Source: a virus. Taken from it: DNA of 38,773 bases. The notes beneath the pieces are model-generated. The model made no database searches, was not told where the DNA came from, and worked only from the letters and a program-made list of their open reading frames with translations. Shown piece after piece: positions 358-35,575 of this stretch (its first letter is position 1; each line of letters opens with the position of its first letter). The DNA is taken from IMG/VR virus record IMGVR_UViG_3300010401_000055, positions 1 to 38,773 of that record; one strand, written 5' to 3'. The position numbers and the translations under genes were made by a program.

Positions 358-358
358 A

Positions 359-502: not shown

Positions 503-512
503 AGACTCCTCG

Positions 513-752: not shown

Positions 753-768
753 ATATGTTCTACTGAAT

Positions 769-845
769 TGGCCCCGCCCTAGGGAATCGAACCCCACTGT
801 GATACAGACCGCGAAATCTGACCACTGATCCCACAATCGGGCGGG
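769..845 (-). tRNA. tRNA or tRNA-like, isotype unclear
   Basis: A perfect acceptor (CCCGCCC/GGGCGGG), a canonical T-arm with UUCGAUU loop and an encoded CCA are present. The centre is abnormal. The best stem, CAGAU/GUCUG, leaves a 6-nt loop UUCGCG, and an outer helix UGUG/CACA replaces the D-arm. Depending on register the anticodon would be UCG (Arg) or CGC (Ala). Position 8 is G instead of U. It directly follows the large ncRNA. Confidence 0.5.
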
Positions 846-848
846 AAA

Positions 849-1640: not shown

Positions 1641-1646
1641 GTTATA

Positions 1647-1674
1647 AGTCTATCATAACCACAGAAAATGTCAA
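1647..1674 (-). promoter_or_regulatory. sigma70-like promoter of the large ncRNA
   Basis: Minus strand TTGACA, 16 nt, TAGACT, with an upstream TGA giving an extended -10. The predicted start is near 1640, one or two nt before the first closing helix of the ncRNA, so the RNA would begin almost exactly with its structured domain. Confidence 0.75.
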
Positions 1675-1725
1675 GAACTATTTTCGTATCTAAGTCGTTG
1701 ATTTTATTCAACTTACAAAAATAGT

Positions 1726-1815
1726 TGGTACACCCGCTTGGAATCAAACCAAGTCAAGGCACTGATCTAGTGCGACGGGCTTATAAGGCCCCTCTGCCTA
1801 TCAAGGCACGGGTGC
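1726..1815 (-). tRNA. class II tRNA with UAU anticodon
   Basis: 90 nt with acceptor GCACCCG/CGGGUGU, T-arm CUUGG-UUUGAUU-CCAAG, A73 and encoded CCA. It has a true long variable arm (GCACU/AGUGC), a mark of Leu/Ser/Tyr tRNAs. The anticodon arm GGGC-CUUAUAA-GCCC gives UAU, an isoleucine (AUA) anticodon normally carried on a class I body. The amino acid is therefore uncertain; Ile by anticodon, Leu by architecture. Confidence 0.75.
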
Positions 1816-1948
1816 AAAATGGAGCCCACCCCAGGGTTTCCCCCGTTATGCTAGCCAGGTGGGCGTAATCTCTATGAGGGGAATGCTACTAACTCCGCAT
1901 TCCTTTACGCTCTACGGTGTCTCAGTAAGTGTAGAGCCTCACAAATCT
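1816..1948 (-). ncRNA. structured spacer RNA between two tRNAs
   Basis: 133 nt with no gene, flanked by the CCA end of one tRNA and the 5' end of another. Stems: CTCTAC/GTAGAG (1910-1915 with 1931-1936), GGAATGC/GCATTCC (about 1880-1903) and GCCCACC/GGTGGGC (about 1823-1863). The first stem-loop carries the ACACC-stem-C signature of the hairpin repeated three times in the large ncRNA, so it may be a related or detached domain. Confidence 0.45.
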
Positions 1949-2026
1949 TGGTGCCGTTGAGGAGACTCGAACTCCTAAGCACTACGTTCTAAGCGTAGTA
2001 GGTATGCCAATTCCCTTCACAACGGC
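1949..2026 (-). tRNA. tRNA with UAG anticodon (Leu, class I body)
   Basis: Acceptor GCCGUUG/CAACGGC, anticodon arm CUACG-CUUAGAA-CGUAG (anticodon UAG, reads CUA), T-loop UUCGAGU, A73, encoded CCA. The variable loop is only 5 nt, whereas bacterial tRNA-Leu has a long variable arm, so charging by LeuRS is not certain. Confidence 0.85.
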
Positions 2027-2031
2027 GTATA

Positions 2032-2104
2032 TGGTCGCTTCGGATGGAGTCAAACCATCGTGGTACGCCTTATGAAAGCGTCCAGGCAATCGTACCGCGA
2101 AGCG
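2032..2104 (-). tRNA. tRNA-Met/Ile2 (anticodon CAU), elongator type
   Basis: Acceptor CGCUUCG/CGAAGCG fully paired, anticodon arm ACGCU-UUCAUAA-GGCGU, A73, encoded CCA. A paired 1-72 and the absence of a GGG/CCC anticodon stem argue against an initiator. A lysidine-modified Ile2 tRNA cannot be excluded. Confidence 0.85.
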
Positions 2105-2108
2105 TATT

Positions 2109-2184
2109 TGGTTGCGGGCACTGGAATTGCACCAATGACCTCGGGTTATGAGCCCAAGAGGAGAACTATCCCCATCCACCCGCT
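2109..2184 (-). tRNA. initiator-like tRNA-fMet (anticodon CAU)
   Basis: Anticodon arm UUGGG-CUCAUAA-CCCGA has the three consecutive G-C pairs typical of initiators. The first acceptor pair (A1/A72) is unpaired, the other initiator hallmark. T-loop UGCAAUU, A73, encoded CCA. 76 nt. Confidence 0.82.
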
Positions 2185-2192
2185 ATAATTCT

Positions 2193-2269
2193 TGGTGCCT
2201 CTGAGAGGACTCGAACCTCCACTGAGTAGGCTCTCGACCTACCGACTCTGCCAATTGGTCTACAGAGGC
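2193..2269 (-). tRNA. tRNA, probable GAG anticodon (Leu)
   Basis: Acceptor GCCUCUG/CAGAGGC, canonical T-loop UUCGAGU, A73, encoded CCA. The anticodon arm GUAGG-UCGAGAG-CCUAC gives GAG in the normal register but with C instead of the near-universal U33, and the variable loop is short. The first 10 nt of the tRNA overlap the end of the Pth2-like gene. Confidence 0.75.
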
Positions 2270-2607
2270 GTAAATTCACTCAATGCTAACGGAAATTTCT
2301 TACAGAACTTTCGTGACTTATTTCCGGCTTCAATCGCAATCGCAGTCAACTTCCAATCAAGGTCCGGTTCGTGCCACACTGAAACCGCGAGTCCTTTACG
2401 TTCGGCTTTCACTGCCAACTTTCGTAATTCATGTTCGTCTTTGACGGACAGAAATCCAAGAAAGTTTGATCGCTCCTGCCATGCACTATTCAGTGTCGGA
2501 AACTCCCTAGCGAATTGTTGCGCGGCATGGATGCTTTGGACTGCCTGATATCCAGGTGCCAAATCCCGCCGGGTCACAATATAGAGTTTGTCTCCTCGTT
2601 TCATCAT
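2260..2607 (-). CDS. Pth2-like peptidyl-tRNA hydrolase
   Basis: 115 residues matching the PTH2 fold family in order: N-terminal strand with YIVTRRDL (about 9-16), the helix GYQAVQSIHAAQQFA (about 19-33; Pth2 proteins have the xxAQxxHAA helix here), a central NFLGFLSV strand and a C-terminal LAVSVWHEP segment. Pth2 frees tRNA from prematurely released peptidyl-tRNA. Its place within a tRNA array fits that role. The TAG stop lies inside tRNA 2193-2269 (its positions 8-10). No clear Shine-Dalgarno; ATGATG start directly after tRNA-Phe. Confidence 0.75.
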   Translation of the reverse strand: MMKRGDKLYIVTRRDLAPGYQAVQSIHAAQQFAREFPTLNSAWQERSNFLGFLSVKDEHELRKLAVKAERKGLAVSVWHEPDLDWKLTAIAIEAGNKSRKFCKKFPLALSEFTPL

Positions 2608-2615
2608 AATACTTA

Positions 2616-2690
2616 TGGCGCGACCTCGGTGACTTGAACACCGTCGACCAGTTCTTCAAACTGGCGTTCTACCAGTTAAACTAAGGTCGC
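2616..2690 (-). tRNA. tRNA-Phe (anticodon GAA)
   Basis: Acceptor GCGACCU/AGGUCGC, anticodon arm CCAGU-UUGAAGA-ACUGG, T-loop UUCAAGU, encoded CCA. The discriminator is G where Phe tRNAs usually carry A. Confidence 0.88.
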
Positions 2691-2694
2691 ATAA

Positions 2695-2772
2695 TGGCTC
2701 CGGTCCCAGGGATCGAACCTGGCTCGTTCCTGATTAACAGTCAGGCGCCCTCACCCTGAGGGCTAGACCGGA
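2695..2772 (-). tRNA. tRNA-Asn (anticodon GUU)
   Basis: Acceptor UCCGGUC/GACCGGA, anticodon arm CCUGA-CUGUUAA-UCAGG, T-loop UUCGAUC, G73 as expected for Asn, encoded CCA. The first 10 nt overlap the end of the HNH gene, whose TAG stop is tRNA positions 8-10. Confidence 0.92.
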
Positions 2773-3068
2773 ATAAAAATCAATTCCAACTTACTAATAT
2801 CGAGCATCCCTTCGTGTACCTCTGCGTGGCAGTTACCACACAACAGAATACACTTTTTCGCTTCTTCGCTTATCTTTTCCCAAGACTTGGGGTTCGCTCT
2901 TATCGCTCCAAAACCAAACTCTTTCTTTGAAGGATCAAAATGATGTAAGTGTAAGGCTTGATGGCATCTATCGTAGCCGCATACTCTGCATCTTCCTCCG
3001 AGACAAGCGACAAGTCTTTTCTTTGAATTGACTCTCCACCTCTTCTGCCGCTCAGATAACTTCGACAT
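2763..3068 (-). CDS. HNH endonuclease (small, zinc-finger type)
   Basis: 101 residues. The HNH core is CRVCGYDRCHQALHLHHFDP followed by CILLCGNCHAEVHEG: two CxxC-type zinc ligand pairs, the LHLHH general-base histidines and the terminal NCHAEVH. Such free-standing HNH nucleases in phages are usually homing endonucleases or packaging-related nickases; the position among tRNAs favours homing. The stop codon overlaps tRNA-Asn; the start overlaps the upstream zinc-ribbon gene by 17 nt. Confidence 0.82.
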   Translation of the reverse strand: MSKLSERQKRWRVNSKKRLVACLGGRCRVCGYDRCHQALHLHHFDPSKKEFGFGAIRANPKSWEKISEEAKKCILLCGNCHAEVHEGMLDISKLELIFIPV

Positions 3069-3252
3069 CTTTACACTTCGTCATTTTCTTACATACTGGA
3101 CAATAGTGTGTTCGTCCATAGTACACACTCGATGGTCCTCGGTTGCTAGCATCTAGTGTGCCATACACTCGAAACTCTGTCAAGCACCAGGTGCATTTTA
3201 CATTGCGCCTTTTTCTGAACTTAACTTTCTGCCACCTGGGATGCTCAAACAT
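3052..3252 (-). CDS. 66-aa zinc-ribbon protein
   Basis: 66 residues with paired knuckles CTWC (about 21-24) and CPVC (about 51-54), separated by a strand-rich segment, as in zinc ribbons. The ends are basic (KFRKRRNVK), so nucleic-acid binding is likely. It overlaps the following HNH gene by 17 nt and lies just downstream of tRNA-Gln. No named family recognised. Confidence 0.62.
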   Translation of the reverse strand: MFEHPRWQKVKFRKRRNVKCTWCLTEFRVYGTLDASNRGPSSVYYGRTHYCPVCKKMTKCKDVEVI

Positions 3253-3262
3253 ATCAACCTAA

Positions 3263-3337
3263 TGGTAGGGGCACCTGGAATCGAACCAAGTCCAACTGGG
3301 TCAGAGCCAGTCGTGCAGCCGTTAACACCTTACCCCT
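3263..3337 (-). tRNA. tRNA-Gln (anticodon CUG)
   Basis: Acceptor AGGGGUA/UGCCCCU (one wobble), anticodon arm ACUGG-CUCUGAC-CCAGU, T-loop UUCGAUU, A73, encoded CCA. Position 8 is A rather than U. Eight nt of the 5' end overlap the metallophosphoesterase gene, whose TAA stop is tRNA positions 6-8. Confidence 0.88.
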
Positions 3338-3863
3338 GTTCAACCTCAAATGTTTCTTCGTTCGCCCAACGGAATCGACTTCTGATTTCTTCCAAGGCAA
3401 TCGGCTTGTAATCCGTATGCTCCACACACACGCACACATACCACGGATCGGGAATTTGATTCGCGTGAGTGTGCCCATGCACATTCGCCTTGAATCGTCC
3501 CTTGCTATCAGGGTGGACAGGGATGTGTGAAAAAATCATCCGGTCCATCACATGATACGCTCGCACGTCACGAAAATACTTCGTGTAATCCGTCAACTTG
3601 AAAATGTCGTGGTTCCCCTTAATAAGAACCTTGTCTCCGTTCAAACGATCCAGGATGGCTAATGCACGGCGATTGATAACTACGTCTCCAAGGTGGTAGA
3701 CCTTATCAGTCGGGCGCACCACTTCATTCCACCGCTTCACCATTTCTTCGTCCATGTCAGCAACAGCATCCCAGGGGCGAAGTTTACTACCGTCTCCATT
3801 GAGAAATCGGCAAATACCTTCGTGGCTGAAATGTGTGTCTGCTGTCACGAAAACGTTCATCAT
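3330..3863 (-). CDS. calcineurin-like metallophosphoesterase
   Basis: 177 residues with the complete dimetal motif set in order: TADTHFSH (D-x-H, about 8-15), LGDVV (about 58-62), KGNHD (about 81-85), SHIPVH (about 111-116) and HGHTHAN (about 129-135). The short single-domain form resembles the COG4186-type phosphoesterases common in phages. The substrate is unknown; cyclic nucleotide, 2',3'-phosphate or phosphodiester activity are all possible. Its TAA stop lies in the 5' end of tRNA-Gln. Confidence 0.88.
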   Translation of the reverse strand: MMNVFVTADTHFSHEGICRFLNGDGSKLRPWDAVADMDEEMVKRWNEVVRPTDKVYHLGDVVINRRALAILDRLNGDKVLIKGNHDIFKLTDYTKYFRDVRAYHVMDRMIFSHIPVHPDSKGRFKANVHGHTHANQIPDPWYVCVCVEHTDYKPIALEEIRSRFRWANEETFEVEQG

Positions 3864-3870
3864 AACCTTA

Positions 3871-3944
3871 TGGTAGGGATACAGGGTGCCGCCCCCTGGA
3901 CTAGTGGTTCAAAGCCACTCGTGATTCTGTTTCACCATATCCCG
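3871..3944 (-). tRNA. tRNA-Gln (anticodon UUG)
   Basis: Anticodon arm AGUGG-CUUUGAA-CCACU, six acceptor pairs with a C1/U72 mismatch, A73, encoded CCA. The T-arm stem CAGGG/CCCUG is intact but its loop is GGCGGCA, lacking U54, U55 and A58. Confidence 0.82.
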
Positions 3945-3946
3945 AT

Positions 3947-4021
3947 TGGTGCTCCCAGAGAGTATCGATCTCTCTTTTCCTGCTTGAAAGGCAGGCGAAC
4001 TAGCCAGTATTCGATGGGAGC
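3947..4021 (-). tRNA. tRNA-Glu (anticodon UUC)
   Basis: Acceptor GCUCCCA/UGGGAGC, anticodon arm CCUGC-CUUUCAA-GCAGG, T-arm GAGAG-AUCGAUA-CUCUC (A54 instead of U54), encoded CCA. A73 where Glu tRNAs usually have G. Confidence 0.88.
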
Positions 4022-4026
4022 GTATT

Positions 4027-4065
4027 TTATGCAAGTGTCCTACCACTTGGACGATAAGCGATGTT
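4027..4065 (-). pseudogene. 5' half of a broken tRNA
   Basis: The minus strand shows a D-arm-like GUCC-AAGUGGUA-GGAC preceded by a possible acceptor strand, then an A/U-rich stretch that runs into the 5' end of tRNA-Glu. There is no T-arm or 3' acceptor, so this is most likely tRNA debris. Confidence 0.35.
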
Positions 4066-4069
4066 CCTT

Positions 4070-4145
4070 CGCCTACAGGGTCCTCGAACCCCCGATTTCT
4101 TGCCTGTATCGGCCGTCGTCCTAACCCCTAGACGATCTCAACTCT
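4070..4145 (-). pseudogene. degenerate tRNA
   Basis: A good D-arm (GUC-UAGGGGUUAG-GAC) and a T-arm-like GGGG-UUCGAGG segment are in the right order and spacing. The acceptor strands do not pair, no anticodon stem forms and no CCA follows. Most likely a decayed Glu/Asp-type tRNA. Confidence 0.35.
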
Positions 4146-4202
4146 GACCTTTAGGAGCGACCCAAAGGAAGCATACTGATCCGGTGCACCGGGGTTTCTG
4201 CT

Positions 4203-4240
4203 TGGCTGAAAGTGGGAGTCGAACCCACATTTACGGCACT
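4203..4240 (-). pseudogene. 3' half of a broken tRNA
   Basis: A perfect T-arm (GUGGG-UUCGACU-CCCAC) and a CCA-like end are present, but the next tRNA's CCA begins only about 25 nt upstream, leaving no room for D and anticodon arms. A truncated tRNA copy. Confidence 0.4.
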
Positions 4241-4241
4241 A

Positions 4242-4316
4242 TGGTCTAGGTGACAGGACTCGAACCTGCATGGTCTCCGCCCCAAACGGAGTGGTCTGCC
4301 ATTGACCCACACCTAG
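4242..4316 (-). tRNA. tRNA-Pro (anticodon UGG)
   Basis: Acceptor CUAGGUG/CACCUAG, anticodon arm CUCCG-UUUGGGG-CGGAG, T-loop UUCGAGU, A73, encoded CCA. All arms normal. Confidence 0.92.
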
Positions 4317-4382
4317 TCTTTTTCTTGTGCCGGTCATTTAATCTCACCGAGACGTGAGCACCTTTCGGCTGACCGATCTTCT

Positions 4383-4457
4383 TGGTGGACCTTCCGGGCT
4401 TCGCTCCCGGCGTTCCGCATTGCGAATGCGGTGTTTTCCTGAATAAACTAAAGGCCC
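4383..4457 (-). tRNA. tRNA-Ala (anticodon CGC)
   Basis: Acceptor GGGCCUU/AAGGUCC (one wobble), D-stem GUUU/AAAC, anticodon arm CCGCA-UUCGCAA-UGCGG, A73, encoded CCA. T-arm stem CCGGG/CCCGG with the non-standard loop AGCGAAG. The first 10 nt overlap the gene at 4448-4705; its TAG stop is tRNA positions 8-10. Confidence 0.85.
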
Positions 4458-4705
4458 TTCAACTCAACTTCCACAACATCGTACCACGGTGCTCGCCACA
4501 CTTTGGGTGACTTTGCTTCCGGGTCAAACGGACTGTCAAATGGATGGTTCCACTGACTGCCAAACTGGTACGCATACCCGCTGGCTTGCTTCTCAAAGGC
4601 ATCGGCGGCTTCCTTGGTCAAGAAGGCACCCACATACCTTGGAACTCCTTCGTCACGCCATGAGTCAAACGCTACAACCACATACACATACACATACTTA
4701 GTCAT
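4448..4705 (-). CDS. 85-aa protein of unknown function
   Basis: 85 residues beginning MTKYVYVYVVVAFDSW with a strand-rich N-terminus, followed by an ALTKEAADAFEKQ-like helix (about 29-41) and an aromatic, acidic C-terminus. No membrane segment. The pattern recalls small phage proteins that pair a beta strand with an 'EA..A..FE' helix, but no family is assigned. It ends inside tRNA-Ala(CGC). Confidence 0.6.
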   Translation of the reverse strand: MTKYVYVYVVVAFDSWRDEGVPRYVGAFLTKEAADAFEKQASGYAYQFGSQWNHPFDSPFDPEAKSPKVWRAPWYDVVEVELKGL

Positions 4706-4720
4706 AATAAACCTTACTTA

Positions 4721-4795
4721 TGGTGGACCCATTCGGTACTGCCCCGAACCTTCCGCAGTGCAAGTGCGGTGTGCCCCTATCAACACCTTGGGCCC
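4721..4795 (-). tRNA. tRNA-Ala (anticodon UGC)
   Basis: Acceptor GGGCCCA/UGGGUCC, anticodon arm CCGCA-CUUGCAC-UGCGG, A73, encoded CCA. T-arm stem UUCGG/CCGAA with the non-standard loop GGCAGUA. Confidence 0.85.
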
Positions 4796-4805
4796 ATGTA
4801 TCATC

Positions 4806-4867
4806 CTGTAAAGATTGGAGGATTGCTCTTGCCCGTGAGGGATCATCTTTGCCAGCAACCTTTACAG
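4806..4867 (-). ncRNA. small tRNA-sized structured element
   Basis: An 8-bp helix CTGTAAAG/CTTTACAG (4806-4813 with 4860-4867) encloses a nested TTGCT/AGCAA stem and a CCC/GGG mini-hairpin. No tRNA arms or CCA. Lies between tRNA-Ala(UGC) and tRNA-His. Confidence 0.35.
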
Positions 4868-4877
4868 AATATCAATC

Positions 4878-4927
4878 GATAGCAGTTTCCCCGTTGCTCA
4901 CAGCCCACGTCTCAGGTGGGTGCTATC
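4878..4927 (-). ncRNA. small structured element with anticodon-like hairpin
   Basis: A 7-bp helix GATAGCA/TGCTATC (4878-4884 with 4921-4927) encloses CCCAC-CTGAGAC-GTGGG (4904-4920), which has the geometry of an anticodon arm (5 bp, 7-nt loop, apparent GAG). There is no D-arm, T-arm or CCA. It may be a remnant tRNA-Leu or an unrelated RNA. Confidence 0.35.
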
Positions 4928-4958
4928 ATGCTTCGTGCCAATCTTCTATGATTGGCTT

Positions 4959-5033
4959 TGGGGTGACCAACGAGACTTGCACTCGTTTTGCTGGTGCCAC
5001 AAACCAGCGCATTACTGCTTATGCTATGGTCAC
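4959..5033 (-). tRNA. tRNA-His (anticodon GUG)
   Basis: Acceptor GUGACCA/UGGUCAC, anticodon arm CUGGU-UUGUGGC-ACCAG, T-loop UGCAAGU and discriminator C73, the histidine identity base; encoded CCA. The nucleotide before position 1 is U, so G-1 would have to be added post-transcriptionally. Confidence 0.87.
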
Positions 5034-5062
5034 AATCGTTCCTCAGTATTTCTCTGAGGATA

Positions 5063-5138
5063 TGGAGCCGGTTGCTGGACTTGCACCAGCCTAATCCGCC
5101 TTACAAGAGCGGCAATCAACTATCTGACTCAAACCGGC
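5063..5138 (-). tRNA. tRNA-Thr (anticodon UGU)
   Basis: Acceptor GCCGGUU/AACCGGC, anticodon arm CCGCU-CUUGUAA-GGCGG, T-arm GCUGG-UGCAAGU-CCAGC, encoded CCA, U73. Begins 1 nt after the stop codon of the HNH gene at 5140. Confidence 0.9.
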
Positions 5139-5139
5139 G

Positions 5140-5667
5140 TTAAGTGAGTACCGTATTCCAATACAAGTAATCTGACCAGTTTTCTGGTGTCTTACGCAAC
5201 CCGATTGTCACGGTGACAACCTGTGCCCAGACTGGCTGCTTCGGCTTCTTGAGCAACTTCATTTTCGCTTGCTCAGGTGTTCTGCCTTCCTTGCGGGAGT
5301 TACAGGACACACATGCCGTCGCAATGTTTTCCCACGTTTTCTTTCCCCCTTGGGCGACTGGTACAACGTGGTCAAACGTCAACTCTTCCGATTCAAACGT
5401 CTCACCGCAATACTGACACTTGAAACCATCGCGGGTGAAGATGTTCAATCGCGTAAACTTCACAGGTGCGCGTCTCTTGATACGCACTGGGAGCAACATT
5501 CTGAGTACCGAAGGAATCTTCATTGAAAACGAAATCGAGTGAATCTCTTCTTCGTGTTCCTCAAGCACCTCAACCTTACCCTGCCAGAGGAGCGTGATCC
5601 CACGCTGCCACCCAACGACCTGGAGGGGTTCATACGTGTTGTTGAGTAAGAGAGTCATTGCTTGCAT
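5140..5667 (-). CDS. HNH endonuclease (McrA-like family)
   Basis: 175 residues. The N-terminal MTLLLNNTYEPLQVVGW followed by GKVEVLEEHEEEIHS is the conserved leader of a widespread bacterial/phage HNH family. The nuclease core is KCQYCG (about 89-94), TFDHVVPVAQGG (about 102-113), WENIATACVSCNSRKEG (about 117-133). Likely a site-specific or homing-type nuclease. Start chosen at the ATG preceded by AAGAGGAAA. It ends 1 nt before tRNA-Thr. Confidence 0.87.
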   Translation of the reverse strand: MQAMTLLLNNTYEPLQVVGWQRGITLLWQGKVEVLEEHEEEIHSISFSMKIPSVLRMLLPVRIKRRAPVKFTRLNIFTRDGFKCQYCGETFESEELTFDHVVPVAQGGKKTWENIATACVSCNSRKEGRTPEQAKMKLLKKPKQPVWAQVVTVTIGLRKTPENWSDYLYWNTVLT

Positions 5668-5700
5668 GATATTTCCTCTTCGTTACTTTCTACTAGCACA

Positions 5701-5775
5701 TGGCAGAGGGTGCAGGAGTCGAACCCGCTCTTGCTGTTTTGGAGACAGTCGTGCCACCGTGTACACTCACCCTCT
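5701..5775 (-). tRNA. tRNA-Trp (anticodon CCA)
   Basis: Acceptor AGAGGGU/ACCCUCU, anticodon loop CUCCAAA on a 4-5 bp stem, T-loop UUCGACU, G73 as in bacterial tRNA-Trp, encoded CCA. Confidence 0.9.
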
Positions 5776-5782
5776 ATGTGTA

Positions 5783-5858
5783 TGGTACGCCGGGTAGGAT
5801 TTGCACCTACATATGCCCACTCATCGGGTGGGTGCCTTGCTAGTTAGGCTACCAGCGT
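5783..5858 (-). tRNA. tRNA-Ile (anticodon GAU)
   Basis: Acceptor ACGCUGG/CCGGCGU, anticodon arm CCCAC-CCGAUGA-GUGGG, T-loop UGCAAAU, A73, encoded CCA. Position 33 is C instead of U, as in the GAG tRNA at 2193. Confidence 0.83.
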
Positions 5859-5944: not shown

Positions 5945-5953
5945 TTCAAAACA

Positions 5954-6044
5954 GGCGGTGGATATAGCGTCTAGATGCCTAATCACATTGGGCACGTGAC
6001 CTCCCAAGAGGCTTTCAGTCACGACTACTAATCTCAACACCGCC
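5954..6044 (-). ncRNA. structured RNA at the head of the tRNA array
   Basis: A 7-bp helix GGCGGTG/CACCGCC (5954-5960 with 6038-6044) encloses GTGCC/GGCAT and GTGAC/GTCAC hairpins, the latter containing CCTC/GAGG. The closing helix would begin within about 6 nt of the start predicted for the weak promoter at 6051-6080, the same arrangement as for the large ncRNA. No tRNA features. Positions 6081-6157 have no gene; a TAGTC/GACTA stem is the only structure seen there. Confidence 0.4.
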
Positions 6045-6050
6045 GTTGCT

Positions 6051-6080
6051 CTATAAAACGGGCCGCATGACCTTTTCCAA
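6051..6080 (-). promoter_or_regulatory. possible promoter of the tRNA array
   Basis: Minus strand TTGGAA, 18 nt, TTATAG: a weak match, proposed because the array otherwise lacks a promoter downstream of the terminator at 6158-6184. Confidence 0.3.
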
Positions 6081-6157
6081 CTGGGTAGTCAATCCTGCTG
6101 GCTGCTGACTAGGCAGAGGGTCTACGACCACTGCTCAAAAATTCTTTCCCCACAAAC

Positions 6158-6184
6158 AAAAAAAGCGGGGGATTTCTCCCTCGC
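6158..6184 (-). terminator. rho-independent terminator
   Basis: Minus strand stem GCGAGGGA/TCCCCCGC (one A-C mismatch), GAAA loop, then seven T. It closes the small transcription unit 6230-6411 and separates the coding operons from the tRNA array. Confidence 0.85.
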
Positions 6185-6229
6185 TTCGTCTACTGCTTCC
6201 CGGTCACCCGGGAGATGGGTGAATGGGAC

Positions 6230-8213: not shown

Positions 8214-8687
8214 TTACGCTCCCCTTTTCCACAGCAACCCCTCCACCACTTCATCAAGTGTACGGTACATCTTGATCCCAAATCGCTTACATAGAATATC
8301 CACGTTTCCCTTACGCCAAAAACCTTGAGGGCAGCACACCAGGCACTTCTGCGGAATAATACCCACCATCAATCCCAATTCCATGAGGGTAATAGGCGAC
8401 TGACTACCAGGGGCAAAATAGAATACAGCATAATCCGCGTACTCCAAGGCGTCCAATTCCCAATTCACTTGTTCGTTGAATTGAGGATTGTCAATGCTCT
8501 GTTCCCAGGACGAATCCCACGCTTCTCGGCGAGGATTGAAGATACACAGGTTCGTTTCCTTCAACTGGTTAACAACCCATCGCTGCCAATCCATTGAATT
8601 ACCCATATCAATGGTGCCAGCGAGGAATACTTGCGTTTCATTCATGGGTCTGTGCCCCCATGAGGCGGGTGGTCGTATCTCAATCAT
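8214..8687 (-). CDS. nucleoside 2-deoxyribosyltransferase-like protein
   Basis: 157 residues of the Nuc_deoxyri_tr type: VFLAGTIDMGNS (about 20-31; substrate loop), IFNPRREAWD (about 49-58), NWELDALEYADYAVFYF (about 75-91; the E of WELDALE is in the place of the usual catalytic Glu), SPITLMELGLMVG (about 97-109) and VCCPQGFWRKGNV. Family members move deoxyribose between bases or act on modified nucleotides, so nucleotide salvage or base modification is likely. Start coupled to the RNA ligase by ATGA, with AAGGAT at 7 nt. Confidence 0.78.
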   Translation of the reverse strand: MIEIRPPASWGHRPMNETQVFLAGTIDMGNSMDWQRWVVNQLKETNLCIFNPRREAWDSSWEQSIDNPQFNEQVNWELDALEYADYAVFYFAPGSQSPITLMELGLMVGIIPQKCLVCCPQGFWRKGNVDILCKRFGIKMYRTLDEVVEGLLWKRGA

Positions 8688-9244
8688 TCTGTCGATCCTT
8701 TCGGTTTTTCGTCGCCCTCAATGGTTTTCTTGAAATAGAGTTTCGCGGCGGAATGGTAAATCACCACACCCTCAGGTTTCATGAATCCCGGTGAGACTAC
8801 GCTGCCGTTCGTCTTAAGAGAATTCAGACAATCCTGAATGATGGTTTGGTTGAAGATACCTTGAAATAACACAGGCACCACATGGCAACACTTTGGGCGC
8901 ACAGCATCGTCGGTCCAGGTATGTGTGTTGAATAGGGAGAAACGCTTTTCCTTGAGGTCATAGCGTCTCTGGATACCCGCACCCCACCACTCACCATAAT
9001 GACGACCAATCCCAAGACCTGGAATCAATTCGTCCTTGTGCTCAAGCACCCAACGACCGAATCCAAAGTTATCCTCTAAGATACCTTCCGGTGTCAAAAG
9101 CCAACGTGAACGACTGCCAGCAAATAACTGTCCATCCTCAGTAATGAGGATTTGAGCATTGGTGCCGTCAATCTTTTCTGTGACGGTACACTCGCGGGAG
9201 AGTCGGGCAATCTTGGCAAAGGTTTCAAATTCAGGCGTAATCAT
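8684..9244 (-). CDS. RNA ligase (T4 Rnl2-like nucleotidyltransferase)
   Basis: 186 residues with the ligase motifs in order: motif I EKIDGTNAQ with nucleophile Lys24; GSRSRWL (about 43-49); motif III-like HYGEWWGAGI (about 82-91); FSLFN (about 102-106); motif IV PEGVVIYH (about 157-164); motif V KKTIEGDEKPKG near the C-terminus. It should join RNA 3'-OH and 5'-P ends through an AMP-enzyme intermediate. In a phage with its own tRNA array, repair of cleaved tRNAs is a natural role. It lacks the long C-terminal domain of T4 Rnl2. Confidence 0.85.
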   Translation of the reverse strand: MITPEFETFAKIARLSRECTVTEKIDGTNAQILITEDGQLFAGSRSRWLLTPEGILEDNFGFGRWVLEHKDELIPGLGIGRHYGEWWGAGIQRRYDLKEKRFSLFNTHTWTDDAVRPKCCHVVPVLFQGIFNQTIIQDCLNSLKTNGSVVSPGFMKPEGVVIYHSAAKLYFKKTIEGDEKPKGSTE

Positions 9245-19484: not shown

Positions 19485-19706
19485 CTAAAAATACCGTCCT
19501 GTTTTATGGTGCAACTCTTCTTCAATAGGCTTAGTGAACCTGAAAATCAGGGTTTCAAGTTCTGAGATATCCCGTTGAAGGGCCCGGAGGTCCTCGGGTG
19601 CCATCTCTCGGAGATCACGTTTGAACCCCTTGGAATTCCGAGGGAATAGCGCCTGCACCGTCTTAAGGTTGAGAACCGCGGCGTAAAATGCTGGGGTCTT
19701 TGTCAT
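19485..19706 (-). CDS. 73-aa protein of unknown function
   Basis: MTKTPAFYAAVLNLKTVQAL, then helices LREMAPEDLRALQRDISELE. Lies directly downstream of the sigma region 4 gene with ATGA coupling, so it might be a partner of that protein (inference). Confidence 0.58.
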   Translation of the reverse strand: MTKTPAFYAAVLNLKTVQALFPRNSKGFKRDLREMAPEDLRALQRDISELETLIFRFTKPIEEELHHKTGRYF

Positions 19707-20134
19707 GCGTTCACCAAAAAGTCTTTCAGGTACTTGGATCGTGCTGGATGCCGCAGTTTTCGTAAGGCTTTCTGATAAATTTGACGGATACGCTCTGGAC
19801 CAACATCAAATACCACGCTCGTTTCTGCTAAGGTATGGGCGTCGATGACCCCAATCCCAAACAGATACCGCACGACTTTTTCCTCTCGCGGCGTCAGGGT
19901 TTCCAGCGTCGATTCAATACACTGCTTGAGGTCAATCTGTCGGATACCGCCATCATAGGTGGGATGGGGTGCATAGGTCGGATGCTGGACTGTACCGAGA
20001 TCAGCAATCGCCACGACCCCCAACCGAGGAGAGGGTCGCCCCTTCTTTCCAAACAACAACCCTCGCTGATACCGCGACTCAAGGTTGTGAGTCCAGGCGG
20101 GGTCTCGTTCCTCATACTTGTGGGGTTTTCCCAT
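19703..20134 (-). CDS. stand-alone sigma70 region 4 protein
   Basis: 143 residues. The C-terminal half is a near-complete sigma70 region 4: LTPREEKVVRYLFGIGV (about 80-96), then TLAETSVVFDVGPERIRQIY (about 101-120) and KALRKLRHPARSKYL, mirroring the RpoD helix-turn-helix that reads the -35 element. Region 2 (the -10 reader) and region 1 are absent; the first 75 residues are a basic, Pro-containing segment. It may work as a transcription activator or competitor that occupies the beta flap, or as half of a split sigma factor. The overlapping downstream gene may be its partner. Confidence 0.82.
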   Translation of the reverse strand: MGKPHKYEERDPAWTHNLESRYQRGLLFGKKGRPSPRLGVVAIADLGTVQHPTYAPHPTYDGGIRQIDLKQCIESTLETLTPREEKVVRYLFGIGVIDAHTLAETSVVFDVGPERIRQIYQKALRKLRHPARSKYLKDFLVNA

Positions 20135-25557: not shown

Positions 25558-25733
25558 CCTGGCCCCCATGATTGACGGTCCAGGGTACGCTGATATCCTG
25601 CGGCAATCGCAATAATAAGGCGCTTGACGGCGGCTTCCTGATCCTGGGTCAACGGCGTGATGCCGAGGCATTCCTTAATGGCACGGTTGAGCCACGCGGC
25701 ATCGTCATGTTCTTTCTTATCAAACTGGATCAT
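25548..25733 (-). CDS. 61-aa helical protein
   Basis: MIQFDKKEHDDAAWLNRAIK, CLGITPLTQDQEAAVKRLII: helical, ends RQSWGPGWD. ATGA coupling to the MazG-like gene upstream, so perhaps functionally linked. Confidence 0.58.
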   Translation of the reverse strand: MIQFDKKEHDDAAWLNRAIKECLGITPLTQDQEAAVKRLIIAIAAGYQRTLDRQSWGPGWD

Positions 25734-26128
25734 GATTTGTCCCTCGTATGTTTACCGCATCCTGTTGTATCCAGGGTCCAGGTGCGCTGTCGGTTCACTT
25801 GCATCTTCGCATCAATCAGATCATGCAGGTCATAGCCCATACGGTCAGACAAACGATAGAGCACAATCATGATATCGGCGATTTCTGTGGCGGCTTTGGG
25901 ACTCGTATCGGAGACGGAGAGTTCACGGAGCAATTCTGCCATTTCTTCATTGGCGCGTATGGCGACACGGAGATTGGACTTGGTGTTGCCAAACGTCTTG
26001 GAGGCCCAGGTGGAAATGGTGGTTTGTGTTTCGGCGTATTCGTTCGCCTGTTCACGCGCCTTGGCTTTCTGTTGCTTCTTTTCCAGGCGCTTGGCAATTT
26101 TCACCACTTCATCATGGAAGGCTTTCAT
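25730..26128 (-). CDS. MazG-like nucleotide pyrophosphohydrolase
   Basis: 132 residues. The all-alpha NTP-PPase motif is present: NEEMAELLREL (about 60-70; the ExxE part) and, one helix later, EIADIMIVLYRLSDRMGYDL (about 82-101; the ExxD part). A long charged helix (1-40) precedes it. Phage MazG-type enzymes hydrolyse dNTPs or (p)ppGpp-related nucleotides, or remove non-canonical dNTPs; the substrate cannot be told from sequence. Fits the dNTP-handling genes elsewhere in the window. Confidence 0.78.
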   Translation of the reverse strand: MKAFHDEVVKIAKRLEKKQQKAKAREQANEYAETQTTISTWASKTFGNTKSNLRVAIRANEEMAELLRELSVSDTSPKAATEIADIMIVLYRLSDRMGYDLHDLIDAKMQVNRQRTWTLDTTGCGKHTRDKS

Positions 26129-26651: not shown

Positions 26652-26752
26652 TTTGTGCCTTTCAGACTGAGATACACGGCAATCAGCCATACGGTAAAGA
26701 TCGGAAGTAAGAGCGCAATGACCATCAGGTTTTTCGTATCCAGATAACTCAT
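26648..26752 (-). CDS. 34-aa membrane peptide
   Basis: MSYLDTKNLMVIALLLPIFT, VWLIAVYLSLKGTK: one membrane helix. Four-nt overlaps with both neighbours; directly downstream of the nicotinamide PRTase gene. Confidence 0.52.
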   Translation of the reverse strand: MSYLDTKNLMVIALLLPIFTVWLIAVYLSLKGTK

Positions 26753-28218
26753 GATCGCTGTGCCGCCAATCGTGTGCGGATTTCCGCGAGGGTGGTCAAG
26801 TTTGGTGTAGCGCCATTCAAGAAAATGGTTTGAAGCATACCGGTTTGCTCCTCGGCTTCTGTGACATCCTCACTTAACGACAAATCTGCATTGACTCTGA
26901 GCAAACCACGGGCAGACTTCTTCAATCCGTTATCCGTCTTGGGGTCCTTAAAGATTGCTCGGCGTTGTCCATTGACCACACCCGAGGTGGCTTTCATCGC
27001 AAACCCATAGGTATCACGGGTCACATACTGATAGGTGAATGAACCAATCCCAAATACGATATTGGTTGACGCAAATCCTTGCTGTTCTAATCGTGCCAGA
27101 ATATCCTTGGCACGGTCTATCGTGATTGAATCCCCATAGATGCACCCAATATGATCGTCTAATTGCTTATAGCCTTTGCTATTCGTGCGTCCACCGAAGG
27201 TTTCCCATAACAATTGAATGGTGCCCTTGTACTCAGGGCTGCCCACAGGTGCCTTCTTATCGCCGCAGATAATATCGGCTGGGTCACCTGAATCAGGACG
27301 AATCACGACTTTCCCCTCACGCGCCATGATTTCATCTTTGAGCGCCGGAAGTGTCTCGGTCAGAATCTTAAAATAATCCCAGGTGTCTGACACGATGCTG
27401 ACAATACCCTTGGAATATACGGTATGGATCAAGCGTCGGAAGGTTTCGAGTTCTCCCGCTTCTCCACCCAAACACATAACAGAGTGTTCGGTGGCAGGCA
27501 CAGAGCACCCAACTAATTCACGGTCTGAGTTCGCGCCATAGTATTGTTCAAGGTAATCAATGGCAGGGATGGTATCGGTACCACTGAAACTTAACAGGTG
27601 GCCCATACCACTCACACAGGCAGATTCAAAACTTGAATGCCCTCTCATGCTGAAATCATGCCCTTGGAATTGGGCAAAGTCAGGCATATCAGAGGTAGCG
27701 CGAGCGTAACGATCCAAGAGCACACGATACTGGTGCGCGGTCGTCGCACTGGTCATGGGCATCCAGGTCACTACCGACAGCAGTGTTTCAAGGAAGTTCG
27801 GCAACCAATAGAATTCCGGTAATGTTTCTTGGAGCGTAATGAACGGGGTACGCATCGGGCACAACATACCTTCTGCCAATGCCTTAACTCTCAGCGGAAG
27901 GAATTGGAGATCATGGAGCGCATAGATATGGTCCATTTGCACAGCATCCTTACCGAGGGCATTATCCAATCGGCGTTTGTATTGCGGGACCACAATCTCA
28001 CGCGGCTGCATGAAAAAATCATTATTAAATCGCTTCGTGAGATATTCCAACACAAAGTATTGCAATCCAAACACAACAACCTTATCCACTCCCTCAACAC
28101 GCGACCCTCTCGGCGTCATGTTGGAATAGACACTTGTGGTGCCATCCGGGTACTGGCGTCTGTGGTCAGTCTTGTAGAAATCCGAAAATGTAATTGGGGC
28201 AATCGCTGAAATCATCAT
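26749..28218 (-). CDS. nadV: nicotinamide phosphoribosyltransferase-like (NARP1 Namat candidate)
   Basis: 489 residues, the usual length for NAMPT/NadV. Conserved elements: ITFSDFYKTDHRRQYPDGT (about 9-27), HDFSMRGHSS (about 187-196), ATEHSVM with His245 (human H247), IRPDSGDP with Arg307 and Asp309 (human R311, D313), and GIGSFTYQYVTRDT (about 390-403). Canonical enzymes join nicotinamide to PRPP to give NMN. In phages, the homologue paired with a Prs-like gene was shown (NARP1) to join nicotinamide to ADP-ribose pyrophosphate, remaking NAD+ directly. It lies 5 nt after the Prs-like gene, sharing TAGGAG as stop and ribosome site. No NMN adenylyltransferase is visible, which favours NARP1. 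Confidence 0.93.
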   Translation of the reverse strand: MMISAIAPITFSDFYKTDHRRQYPDGTTSVYSNMTPRGSRVEGVDKVVVFGLQYFVLEYLTKRFNNDFFMQPREIVVPQYKRRLDNALGKDAVQMDHIYALHDLQFLPLRVKALAEGMLCPMRTPFITLQETLPEFYWLPNFLETLLSVVTWMPMTSATTAHQYRVLLDRYARATSDMPDFAQFQGHDFSMRGHSSFESACVSGMGHLLSFSGTDTIPAIDYLEQYYGANSDRELVGCSVPATEHSVMCLGGEAGELETFRRLIHTVYSKGIVSIVSDTWDYFKILTETLPALKDEIMAREGKVVIRPDSGDPADIICGDKKAPVGSPEYKGTIQLLWETFGGRTNSKGYKQLDDHIGCIYGDSITIDRAKDILARLEQQGFASTNIVFGIGSFTYQYVTRDTYGFAMKATSGVVNGQRRAIFKDPKTDNGLKKSARGLLRVNADLSLSEDVTEAEEQTGMLQTIFLNGATPNLTTLAEIRTRLAAQRS

Positions 28219-28223
28219 AACTC

Positions 28224-29009
28224 CTATTGTGTGAACCGCGCTGACTGATCGTTGACTGCTATGACCTGATCTATAATTCCCTTAAAGACGTTGGGACCCT
28301 TGGTAAAGAATCCATGCGTCACATATAGATGGATTTTCTGTGCACCCTGTTTGCGTAATTCTTTTGCCAATTCAATGAAGGTGCGTCCACCATCACAGAT
28401 ATCATCAACAATGACAAATGTTTCATCAATAGGGAAAAGTGTAGGCATGTACACAACGGTGCCTGTGATTTCACCTGTAGAGGTGTCACGAATTTTGCTG
28501 GACTCAATCACACCCTTGAGTCTGGAAGTGTTGAGGAGTTGAGCGAGTTTGTGTGTTTTCTTAAGCGCCCCAGCATCAGGACTGACAAGCCAGAAGTTGC
28601 CGGACGTGTGAGCATGAATCACTCCATCCATTAAATCCCATTGATTGGACACACGACAATTATGAATAAGCGCGGGGGTTACGTCTGAGTGCGGGTCCAT
28701 AATATGGACATTTTCAAACGCGAGGGAGTTAATCAGATTGGCAAACACAAACAGGCTGAATGATTCGCCTTTGGCATTGGTACGATCTTGACGGCTGAAC
28801 GGCACATAATCCATGTAGAGATTGGTAAGTGTCTTGCCGATCCGCTTAGCCGCATCACAGAACAGGAGCAATTCAATTATGTCCTCGTTTTTCTCAAAGA
28901 CAAATTTTACATCTACATGGGAATAGCCGGGACCGTGGGGAAGGATGTTAACCTGCATTTCCCCAACAGGGAACTTGAAGGTCTTAAATGGGATGTTGGA
29001 AGTAATCAT
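28224..29009 (-). CDS. prs: ribose-phosphate pyrophosphokinase-like (NARP1 Adps candidate)
   Basis: 261 residues, about 50 shorter than bacterial Prs. Recognised parts: catalytic loop YVPFSRQDR (about 68-76), MDPHSD (about 104-109), SPDAGALKK (about 143-151) and the ribose-phosphate binding motif FVIVDDICDGGRTF (about 198-211). Prs moves pyrophosphate from ATP to ribose-5-phosphate. Its phage relatives in NARP1 (Adps) act on ADP-ribose. First gene after the promoter at 29048, with the nicotinamide PRTase next. The divergent motif DICDGG in place of the usual D-IDTGGT is worth noting. Confidence 0.92.
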   Translation of the reverse strand: MITSNIPFKTFKFPVGEMQVNILPHGPGYSHVDVKFVFEKNEDIIELLLFCDAAKRIGKTLTNLYMDYVPFSRQDRTNAKGESFSLFVFANLINSLAFENVHIMDPHSDVTPALIHNCRVSNQWDLMDGVIHAHTSGNFWLVSPDAGALKKTHKLAQLLNTSRLKGVIESSKIRDTSTGEITGTVVYMPTLFPIDETFVIVDDICDGGRTFIELAKELRKQGAQKIHLYVTHGFFTKGPNVFKGIIDQVIAVNDQSARFTQ

Positions 29010-29508: not shown

Positions 29509-29948
29509 GATTTCTTCCTGGGTATGAAAAAGGTATCAGGTGCCTTGGGTTTCGGACCTCGTGACATCCACGCGGCTGCACTAAACAATCCACCCTCTGA
29601 CCAATAACTTTCTTTGAGCGTACCCTTAAAGAATACTTCTTCTTTAGGTTCTCGCAGGTGCGGGTATTGTTTCAGGAAGCGATTATGTAAAACAGAATCC
29701 AAATAGGTCAATCCAAATGCAGCAGTTAGTTGTACATCCACTTTTCGTGCAAAGGGGTCGGCACCTGAGGTCCAGGTATCCCAACTGGCGCGAGGATCAA
29801 ACTTCGCACGGACGTTTTCATCCAAGAGCGCAGCATCATAGGATACCATGATCGTCTGAGGAATGTTCCCCTCAAAGTGAAGGTGAATTTCCTTCTGTTG
29901 GTGTTGAATCCGCCCATTCTCATGTACGAAATAACAATTGGCGATCAT
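29505..29948 (-). CDS. 147-aa protein of unknown function
   Basis: N-terminal beta region (NCYFVHENGRIQHQQKEIHL), central LLDENVRAKFDPRASWDTWT, then a C-terminal basic tail ending FIPRKKS. TAATG start, ATGA into the PRTase. No family recognised. Confidence 0.6.
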   Translation of the reverse strand: MIANCYFVHENGRIQHQQKEIHLHFEGNIPQTIMVSYDAALLDENVRAKFDPRASWDTWTSGADPFARKVDVQLTAAFGLTYLDSVLHNRFLKQYPHLREPKEEVFFKGTLKESYWSEGGLFSAAAWMSRGPKPKAPDTFFIPRKKS

Positions 29949-30379
29949 TATTCCTTACACATGCTGGGTGAGAATCCTGATCCGAAAATCTTAGTGAGGT
30001 ACAATCGTGTCTTGGTATCATCCACCGTATTATATTCAAATCCTCCCTTGGTGCGCTCATTGATCGTCACCCACTCTTTGTACATCGCACAGGTCTTAGC
30101 CACAACATCTGATTGCTGTGAGGGTTCAGGTGCTTTGCTTGGAGTGACTACAGGAGCATTGAGGGACTTGGTATGTTCAAGGGTGCCAGAAGAATAGGAA
30201 GGGACCACAGAGAGCGCAGGACCAGCCACGGGTACACACCCCATGATATTTTTGTTTGTGTACATGGTCGTGCCGTCCATCTGTGTACAGGCAAGCATAT
30301 TGCTTTGTCCGAACGCATAAGTGAATGCGGTAATCAAAAACATCACAGTAAACAATGTCATCAAAATAGATTTCATCAT
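29948..30379 (-). CDS. periplasmic protein, DUF4124-like
   Basis: 143 residues: signal peptide (KSILMTLFTVMFLITAFTYA), then ACTQMDGTTMYTNKNIMGC, the short beta-hairpin with two Cys seen in DUF4124-type periplasmic proteins, a Pro/Ser linker, and a helical C-terminus with two more Cys. GGAGG precedes ATGATG; the second ATG is better spaced. Probably exported to the envelope. Confidence 0.68.
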   Translation of the reverse strand: MMKSILMTLFTVMFLITAFTYAFGQSNMLACTQMDGTTMYTNKNIMGCVPVAGPALSVVPSYSSGTLEHTKSLNAPVVTPSKAPEPSQQSDVVAKTCAMYKEWVTINERTKGGFEYNTVDDTKTRLYLTKIFGSGFSPSMCKE

Positions 30380-30396
30380 GACCTCCGGTTAATAAT

Positions 30397-30682
30397 GGAA
30401 CGGTGGTAGGGATGCCAACCCCTACAACGTTCACCTGAAACAAATTTAACTATGCGATAGACCTCCAGGATGTTGCAACATTCCCTTCAACGATCTAGGG
30501 GGATTTTACCCTCCCACACACGCTTGCTAGTTGTATAGGTTACGTGTGATTCGTTCCTCATACACCCCACACCAGAGTTTGTATGATCGACGGCACTATT
30601 CAATTTCAGACTACTTGTTCTTTCGCAGGTGCAACTACTCAGCCTTACCCTCGCAAGAAGGGGACTTCGGCCACACCGTTCC
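30397..30682 (-). ncRNA. second large structured RNA candidate
   Basis: The 345-bp gap between genes holds no credible frame. A perfect 9-bp helix GGAACGGTG/CACCGTTCC (30397-30405 with 30674-30682) encloses the region. Inside are GTAGGG/CCCTAC (30406-30411 with 30420-30425), a CACACG/CGTGTG long-range stem (about 30519-30548), an AGGG/CCCT hairpin near 30498-30513 and a CCCT-CGCAAGA-AGGG hairpin (30648-30662) inside a GCC/GGC pair. No own promoter seen; it would be read through within the 32333 operon. No known family recognised. Confidence 0.5.
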
Positions 30683-30724
30683 GTTTTCCTTTCCTAGTCG
30701 TGTTCGTATTCTTCTGTGGTGATT

Positions 30725-30955
30725 TCATGGCTTCTGGTGCTCTAATAAACGATATTCGTATTGATCGGCCATCTCTGAAACGATCCATTGTTTATTCAAC
30801 CTACGCTCAATCGTAGTCAACCACACAAAGGTTTCGTAGACCTCTGTTTTGCTATGCTGAGTGATCTTAGTGTTTTTTATGAGACGCGGAAACAACACAA
30901 AGAATCGCTGCCACACATATTCCCCATCATACATGACTAGATCGTGGTGAATCAT
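30725..30955 (-). CDS. 76-aa protein of unknown function
   Basis: From MIHHDLVMYDGEYVWQRFFV, helices, then VYETFVWLTTIERRLNKQWI. ATGA start. It precedes the structured RNA gap. No family recognised. Confidence 0.58.
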   Translation of the reverse strand: MIHHDLVMYDGEYVWQRFFVLFPRLIKNTKITQHSKTEVYETFVWLTTIERRLNKQWIVSEMADQYEYRLLEHQKP

Positions 30956-31248
30956 ACAATTGTGTTCCAAATGCCTTTTTGCAGGCGTTGATCCAAAACC
31001 ACTTTCTCAATTTTCCTTCGGCGCACGTCAAAACCTTCTTTAATCAAATACTCCGACACCATCATGGTATGCTTGTGGGCATCGGTCTCTTTATCAAAAT
31101 GATTGGTGGCGTAGCAGAATATGAAGTCGCCGAGGAGGGGGTCACCTGCAATGCGGGAGAATGACCATCCATAAGTTTCAATGTAGGAGCGCAAGAAATC
31201 TATTCTGTGCATCAAACACTGAACGGTAATGTGGCACTCAAAGGTCAT
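30952..31248 (-). CDS. 98-aa conserved phage protein
   Basis: MTFECHITVQCLMHRIDFLR, SRIAGDPLLGDFIFCYATNH, FDVRRRKIEKVVLDQRL: matches the 'FECHITV...RIAGDP-LG-..C' phage family. The paired HITV and HKHTMM segments resemble the two HxT motifs of 2H phosphoesterases, but the match is only suggestive. ATGA overlaps. Confidence 0.65.
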   Translation of the reverse strand: MTFECHITVQCLMHRIDFLRSYIETYGWSFSRIAGDPLLGDFIFCYATNHFDKETDAHKHTMMVSEYLIKEGFDVRRRKIEKVVLDQRLQKGIWNTIV

Positions 31249-33957: not shown

Positions 33958-35031
33958 CTATTCTTCGTCAAACACGTCTTGTGTGTAAAACACATAAGAC
34001 AATCCGGTTGAAATCAAAATTCCAACCACTAACAAAATCCACATGACCGTCTCAGAGGGCTCCATTCCTGCCATCAGGTACTTATAGTCCTCCATGTTCA
34101 TACGGACGAATCCGCGCTTGATCTGTTCATCCAGCATCGCTATGATGGCATCACGTTTATCAAGACTACCGATCTCTAACAGTGCATCGCGCACCTCCAC
34201 TTTGAGTAATTCAGAATGCGACCATGATATCACACGCGCCCAATTGATTGTGTGTCCATCCGTTGATCCCACGATAATAATGAGGTCATTCTTTTTGCCA
34301 CCGAGCCATGCGTTTTGGAGCGCATGGGAAAAGGACTCGCTCTCTTTTGTCACCACAAACACAATGTTGACTTTCTTTTCCACACCGAGCGCCGCATTGA
34401 GCACCTGGAGTTTAGTATTCCACTCAGCGGCAGACTCAATAGGGTCGACATGCACAAGACGGTCGACATAATGATAATCATAGACACTCAAGGGATAGGT
34501 AGGAATAGCGTACTGGGTGCCTTCCTCAGTCTTATTGAGAAGTGACCAGGGATTGGCTTTGATATAGTTGGTGAATGAATGTGTCAGGGCTGTGGGGTCT
34601 CCCATGCGTACCGCGGTCCATCGTGGAGGCTCTGAGGTACCCTGTCGGTCGATACGATCAATCTCAAAGGATTCTTTGGCAGTCGTATAGACATACCACG
34701 ATATATCATAGAGGTGTTCGTAGCAGGTATCACAGTGAACGGTGGAGCAATTCTTTCCGCAACTCACAGGTCGGCAGCGGCAAGGATAGGAATGGGAACA
34801 GGAGACTCGTTGGTAGTCTTTACTTTCCACCTGAGCATTCCAGATTTCCGTATCAGAAGTTGATTGATAGCGAGCCATGAAGTACCCGCTGGTCATGAGG
34901 ATAGCGACCACAGCAATTTGAATGAGAAATTCCTTCCAAGTGATCTGATAGCGACCACCTTGAAAGACGGAGAGAATATAGAAGCACAGACCCACGAATA
35001 GTGGGATAAAGAGTAGTGCTAGCAAACCCAT
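33958..35031 (-). CDS. Cys-rich TPM-like membrane protein
   Basis: 357 residues: two N-terminal membrane segments (LALLFIPLFVGLCFYILSVF and FLIQIAVVAILMTSGYF), a Cys cluster SCSHSYPCRCRPVSCGKNCS then VHCDTCYEH (about 75-104), a domain with VNIVFVVTKESESFSHALQN and DLIIIVGSTDGHTINWARV resembling TPM/DUF477 folds, and a C-terminal membrane segment (MWILLVVGILISTGLSYVF). Pairing with a LemA-like gene is a known neighbourhood. GGAGG before ATG; promoter 35061. Confidence 0.68.
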   Translation of the reverse strand: MGLLALLFIPLFVGLCFYILSVFQGGRYQITWKEFLIQIAVVAILMTSGYFMARYQSTSDTEIWNAQVESKDYQRVSCSHSYPCRCRPVSCGKNCSTVHCDTCYEHLYDISWYVYTTAKESFEIDRIDRQGTSEPPRWTAVRMGDPTALTHSFTNYIKANPWSLLNKTEEGTQYAIPTYPLSVYDYHYVDRLVHVDPIESAAEWNTKLQVLNAALGVEKKVNIVFVVTKESESFSHALQNAWLGGKKNDLIIIVGSTDGHTINWARVISWSHSELLKVEVRDALLEIGSLDKRDAIIAMLDEQIKRGFVRMNMEDYKYLMAGMEPSETVMWILLVVGILISTGLSYVFYTQDVFDEE

Positions 35032-35060
35032 GTCAACGGTCCTCCATCACGAATGGTATA

Positions 35061-35089
35061 AGTCTAACACAGCAGGGTGGGGTTGTCAA
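35061..35089 (-). promoter_or_regulatory. sigma70-like promoter
   Basis: TTGACA, 17 nt, TAGACT on the minus strand; start near 35054. Drives the TPM-like/LemA-like operon. The plus-strand endonuclease starts 25 bp away, so the two units are divergent. Confidence 0.72.
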
Positions 35090-35113
35090 GCACTAAATAG
35101 GGCAGGAGGCACT

Positions 35114-35575
35114 ATGAACTGGCAATATAAAGGCATTGATTTTATTGATCCGGCCGGATACTTTGGCTTTATCTACCGGATTACGTGCATACCTACCGGA
35201 AAAATGTATATCGGTAGGAAACTATTCACCAAAGCCAAGATCAAAGCGGTAACCAAAACGAACAAGCGTAAGAAGAAACTCAGGGTCGCTAATGACTGGG
35301 AAAACTATTACGGGTCCAGTGCGGACCTCCTGGAAGATATCAAGACGCTGGGTAAGGATCAATTCAAGCGTGAAATCCTCCACCTCACAACCATGCGCGG
35401 GGAAACGAACTACCTTGAGGCACTGGAAATCCTCACCTCGGGTGCCCTGCTCTCGGACAACTACTACAATAAGTGGGTGAGTCTCAAGTTACACAAGTCA
35501 AGCCTTGCTCACCTATCTTCGTCGCCCCAATCCTCAGCATCGTCTGCACCAGAAATTCCTGGCATATCCTCATAA
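35114..35575 (+). CDS. GIY-YIG-like homing-type endonuclease
   Basis: The only plus-strand gene. 153 residues: GFIYRITCIPTGKMYIGRKL (about 15-34) holds the GIY/YIG halves (FIY...YIG with the following Arg), then KTNKRKKKLRVANDWENYYG and SSADLLEDIKTLGKDQFKRE, matching phage GIY-YIG proteins ('SW-NYYGSS--L--DI...G---FKREIL'). AGGAGG is 4 nt before the ATG. Its last 67 nt run antisense to the minus gene at 35509, and the C-terminal LSSSPQSSASSAPEIPG looks like read-in sequence. Probably a late, mobile insertion. Confidence 0.8.
   Translation: MNWQYKGIDFIDPAGYFGFIYRITCIPTGKMYIGRKLFTKAKIKAVTKTNKRKKKLRVANDWENYYGSSADLLEDIKTLGKDQFKREILHLTTMRGETNYLEALEILTSGALLSDNYYNKWVSLKLHKSSLAHLSSSPQSSASSAPEIPGISS

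Follow-up and report, generated by a model that had tools for sequence, protein, structure and literature searches.

A predicted large structured RNA family in the NAD-salvage operons of three large phages

ROOL and GOLLD are large structured RNAs of phages and prophages with kissing loops between subunits, some of them symmetric and palindromic (PMC12286853). The element described here, 286 nt at positions 30397-30682 on the minus strand of a 38.8-kb viral contig (the window, that is, the whole stretch of DNA analysed), resembles them in being phage-encoded and in its multi-branch fold and conserved loops; the phage of the window also bears many tRNAs. A hint, and only a hint, of the RNA-only homo-oligomers of ROOL and GOLLD is a palindromic UUGCAA loop that is invariant in all three known members of the element. 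However, ROOL and GOLLD are several hundred nucleotides long and lie near tRNA islands, whereas the element is about 286 nt long, has no Rfam match and a different architecture, and sits some 24 kb from the tRNA array of the window, with the nearest tRNA at 5783-5858. Because it falls outside these families in sequence, length and location, we have not filed it with them, and a literature search found no description of this RNA, GOLLD and ROOL being the nearest kind. Species 1 and 2 of the phage T4 tRNA cluster, stable RNAs without known function, likewise come from a large phage with a tRNA cluster, but they are shorter and lie inside that cluster, and BLAST of the element gave no significant match to any phage record. 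NAD+ and PRPP riboswitches are represented in Rfam and are much smaller than the element; genes of NAD and PRPP metabolism do lie downstream of the element, but it is larger and matched no riboswitch family. Phages also carry an NAD+ salvage cassette of nicotinamide phosphoribosyltransferase (NAMPT) and PRPP synthetase (compare the NARP pathways, PMC12774641). The operon that contains the element holds both genes in all three phages. We know of no RNA part of such a cassette.

The element lies in a 345-nt gap (30380-30724) between the open reading frames at 29948-30379 and 30725-30970. The first-pass annotation had reported this gap correctly, but its description of the operon as otherwise gap-free is loose, as the window has further gaps of 120-280 nt, for example at 5950-6229. 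The perfect 9-bp complementary ends on which that annotation relied are present: positions 30397-30405 read GGAACGGTG, and the exact reverse complement, CACCGTTCC, occupies 30674-30682, with the arms 268 nt apart. Among 2000 dinucleotide shuffles, some perfect 9-bp inverted repeat turns up in 13.5%, and 2.2% have a repeat whose arms are separated by 200 nt or more. Nor does the whole gap fold with unusual energy (z -0.22); for the 286-nt element alone the signal is modest (z -2.03 for the minus strand and -2.49 for the plus strand). In view of these shuffle rates and unremarkable energies the single-sequence case is weak, and it is covariation in relatives that establishes the structure. The absence of a gene from the interval was borne out, since stops interrupt all six frames of the element in each of the three homologs and leave no conserved reading frame, and hence no conserved protein.

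Relatives were reached through the structural-protein gene at 33958-35031, for which 50 contigs were returned. One of these, G001 (176 kb), is a true relative, with 64% identity to the window in the structural protein and 85% in the ribonucleotide reductase. When the entire G001 record was searched as DNA, the element proved to have a homolog there (E 3e-55, 78%), and the similarity spans exactly the element, starting and stopping at its ends. A degenerate DNA pattern made from the invariant motifs located a second homolog on L082, together with a near-identical copy on L093. The independent members therefore number three, all on metagenomic contigs, with pairwise identities of 76, 77 and 81%. 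A covariance model (R1) built from the full RNA scores these members at 321-346 bits and gave no credible match in 75 other IMG/VR records searched whole and no credible homolog in eight phage isolates, of which three had been selected by a NAMPT match; weak matches of 9-11 bits were discarded as not credible. BLAST against 50,697 phage records and a plasmid collection returned nothing significant, 84,980 genomes of bacteria and archaea scanned with a DNA pattern yielded two chance matches only, and beyond the known members later patterns matched by chance alone. One pattern match, on L115, was rejected because it lies inside a gene and fails the covariance model. Two nearby genes, each used as a single-protein query against viral contigs, led to no relatives. 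The Rfam search that had been proposed assigned no identity: the window element has no match at the gathering threshold or at E<=10, and the elements of the two relatives have none at E<=3. On these comparisons, the element is an RNA family of its own, absent from Rfam and so far confined to three large phages.

When two sequences were compared, double changes were already seen in 19 of the 83 pairs predicted. The three-sequence alignment holds 82 pairs in 14 helices, one of which is a putative, never-varying kissing pair, and 99.2% of the 246 cells (82 pairs in three sequences) can pair. Covariation in related phages, the check that the first-pass annotation had proposed, is clearly present: double changes affect 21 of the 82 pairs, against 7.2 in shuffles, and none of 500 shuffles reached as many. 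Sliding the 3' partners by 1-3 columns lowers pairing to 37-49%, and an unsupervised stem search ranks the same helices on top. The RNA contains two to four stems with at least two compensated pairs, whereas coding stretches with a similar degree of identity contain none or one. Conservation is just as high in unpaired as in paired columns (91/130 and 108/156 invariant, respectively), as would be expected if the folded loops matter. Judged by the paired changes in the two relatives, the element is under selection to fold as RNA, and the earlier proposal of a large structured RNA closed by a 9-bp helix is strongly supported. We assign the RNA to the minus strand because its G-U pairs (34 of 234 cells) would be A-C mismatches on the opposite strand; the genes around the element are also on the minus strand.

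Comparison of the three members shows, at the level of predicted structure, a closing helix of 9-10 bp, a long covarying P4, a multi-branch core and invariant loops. The order is P1, P2/P2a, P3, GAAAGAACAAGUA, P4, the P5 junction (P5a/b, P6, P7 and P8/8a) and P9, all on the minus strand. The closing helix P1 (5' strand 30674-30682, 3' strand 30397-30405) is paired in all three phages and has been kept through compensatory changes, with two double changes of the types A-U/G-C and C-G/A-U. The P2/P2a hairpin (30641-30672) has three pairs with double changes; P2 joins 30669-30672 with 30641-30644 and P2a joins 30659-30663 with 30647-30651 around an invariant 7-nt loop, UCUUGCG, at 30652-30658. 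P3 (30625-30635) is a mini-hairpin of 2 bp with double changes in both pairs and a conserved CACCU in its loop, and it is followed by the unpaired GAAAGAACAAGUA (30612-30624), identical in all three. The strongest helix is P4, in which 30603-30611 pairs with 30433-30441 with four double and three single changes. P5 (30593-30596 with 30452-30455) closes the inner multi-branch junction; its GUGC/GCAU strands are invariant, hence without covariation. Within the junction lie P5a/P5b (30552-30592; five pairs with double changes, invariant loop region ACUCUGGUGUGGG), P6 (30517-30548; two pairs with double changes, loop GCAAG at 30523-30527), P7 (30498-30514; an invariant GGAGGG...CCCCC stem with a variable loop) and P8/P8a (30458-30497; three double changes), whose apical loop is the palindromic UUGCAA (30473-30478). 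In the 8-bp hairpin P9 (30406-30425; GUAGGGGU/AUCCCUAC, loop UGGC) a single pair has changed, on one side. Within the P2a loop, CUUGC (30653-30657) is a putative kissing partner of the GCAAG loop of P6, with five Watson-Crick pairs invariant in all three phages, and CACC of the P3 loop is complementary to GGUG of the P5b loop. Because these segments are invariant and show no covariation, such loop-loop contacts and any self-pairing of UUGCAA are suggestive only.

The element is intergenic in all three phages and always just upstream of a gene, but the genes that touch it change. The directly upstream gene is different in each phage. The directly downstream gene of the window (29948-30379, 143 aa, with a signal-peptide-like start) is replaced in the relatives by a family of 97 aa (G001) or 88 aa (L082), and its homolog lies one gene further on in both. 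The first-pass annotation had offered the element as a possible cis-regulator of this 143-aa gene, a proposal that these different next genes do not support; its other proposal, a processed ncRNA, may hold. The element stays conserved as DNA where amino-acid identity in neighbouring genes has fallen to about 40-60%. That the RNA persists whole beside changing neighbours speaks against a leader of the 29948 gene and favours a free-standing, co-transcribed RNA. Two genes are its constant companions in all three phages, both downstream within about 1-3 kb and in the same orientation: PRPP synthetase (28224-29009), at a distance of about 1-1.4 kb, and NAMPT (26749-28218). In the window the pair (26749-29009) constitutes an NAD-salvage cassette. 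On L082 (7448-9343) and L093 (3196-5091) we also observed a 631-aa NAMPT frame that spans the counterpart of the MazG-like gene of the window (25730-26128), possibly a fusion.

Upstream, the stop codon of the preceding gene lies only about 8 and 12 nt from the RNA in the two relatives; because this gap is so small, a promoter of the RNA's own would fall in unrelated coding sequence. A scan for sigma-70-like promoters directly upstream on the strand of the element found none. The scan covered the sigma-70 type only, and phage-specific promoters could be missed, since the window encodes a small protein (19703-20134) that contains a sigma-70 region 4 domain and might be a phage sigma factor recognising promoters of its own kind. 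A promoter-like TTGGCA...TATATT was seen in L082, at the element's 3' end, but the scan did not pick it up in the other two, and no terminator was found after the element. From the short upstream spacing and the lack of a sigma-70-like promoter and of a terminator, we infer that co-transcription with the operon is favoured.

The reading that we prefer, at roughly even confidence, is that the operon transcript is processed to yield a stable RNA that works in trans; we infer both the release and the trans action. An RNA of about 286 nt would be transcribed with the operon that bears the NAD-salvage genes of the phage and cut free within the short linkers that flank it, in the way that tRNAs are excised from long transcripts. 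The freed RNA would be shielded by its paired ends, and the folded molecule, held by loop-loop contacts such as CUUGC with GCAAG, would act in trans and might pair with itself through the UUGCAA loop. Against this reading it can be said that a regulatory leader could be conserved equally well and that the element always stands upstream of a gene. We further speculate, though we consider it doubtful, that the RNA belongs to a new class of trans-acting phage RNAs, excised from the NAD-salvage transcript and folded into a compact particle, perhaps a homodimer through its palindromic loop, that serves host take-over or defence against NAD-depleting immunity.

Control in cis, in which a riboswitch-like or protein-binding part of the operon mRNA would respond to a metabolite or protein linked to NAD/PRPP salvage and so set expression of the downstream genes, is in our view rather unlikely, but it stays the main rival because PRPP synthetase and NAMPT are the constant companions of the element. 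Multi-branch junctions with invariant loops are also typical of metabolite-binding RNAs, and an A+T-rich linker with the GGAGG ribosome-binding site of the next gene (30380-30396, minus strand), as read from the sequence, directly follows the element. An ATTATT-like linker and GAGG follow it in both relatives too, and the distance from the end of the element to the GAGG-type site is about 10-12 nt in the window and in G001. In L082, however, the GAGG lies at an unusable distance from the start of the next gene, the predicted occlusion of the ribosome site is inconsistent among the three, and no terminator-like hairpin is present. The gene immediately downstream varies, at least one gene separates the element from PRPP synthetase, and no Rfam riboswitch family matches.

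A self-processing or catalytic RNA, that is, a ribozyme or degenerate intron-like RNA cutting itself from the transcript, would account for the closed ends, the big multi-helix core and conserved unpaired stretches such as GAAAGAACAAGUA, but we judge it improbable: none of the ribozyme or intron families in Rfam matches even with the cut-off relaxed to E<=10, the element is intergenic rather than inside a gene, and no reverse transcriptase was found in the four records scanned. A group I or group II intron was rejected, as the Rfam intron models are unmatched and the location is intergenic in all three phages. The size and closed inverted-repeat ends resemble retron ncRNA, which is of comparable size and has ends of this kind, and the element might be the RNA component of an already described protein-RNA system (retron msr-msd, a TnpB/IscB guide RNA or similar). 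This is very improbable, since no reverse transcriptase or TnpB-type nuclease was found in the window, G001, G072 or G073, which excludes retron and TnpB-type systems in the available sequence; moreover, the neighbouring genes are unconserved, and among the proteins scanned a single HNH match was obtained, at 5140-5667, 25 kb off. Chance complementarity in a non-functional gap or degraded gene, with which the weak single-sequence statistics would agree, has a negligible probability and is refuted by the strong covariation and by DNA conservation amid diverged neighbouring genes.

The importance of the element is that it is a well-supported structured RNA family not in Rfam, of a size class (about 290 nt, with many helices and invariant loops) that usually accompanies a specific biochemical job. 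Its location in the NAD-salvage operons of phages touches current interest in phage-host conflict, and the fold is now precise enough for probing, RNA-seq and mutation. Several further features of the window were recorded. ARAGORN predicts 16 tRNA genes at 124-5858, all on the minus strand, and G001 has 25 tRNA matches; the 280-nt geneless stretch at 5950-6229 adjoins the tRNA array, and the matching interval of L002 seems shorter. A protein with an RNA ligase domain is encoded at 8684-9244. At 35030-35575, on the plus strand and opposite to its neighbours, lies a gene for a SegE-like GIY-YIG endonuclease, a candidate free-standing homing endonuclease.
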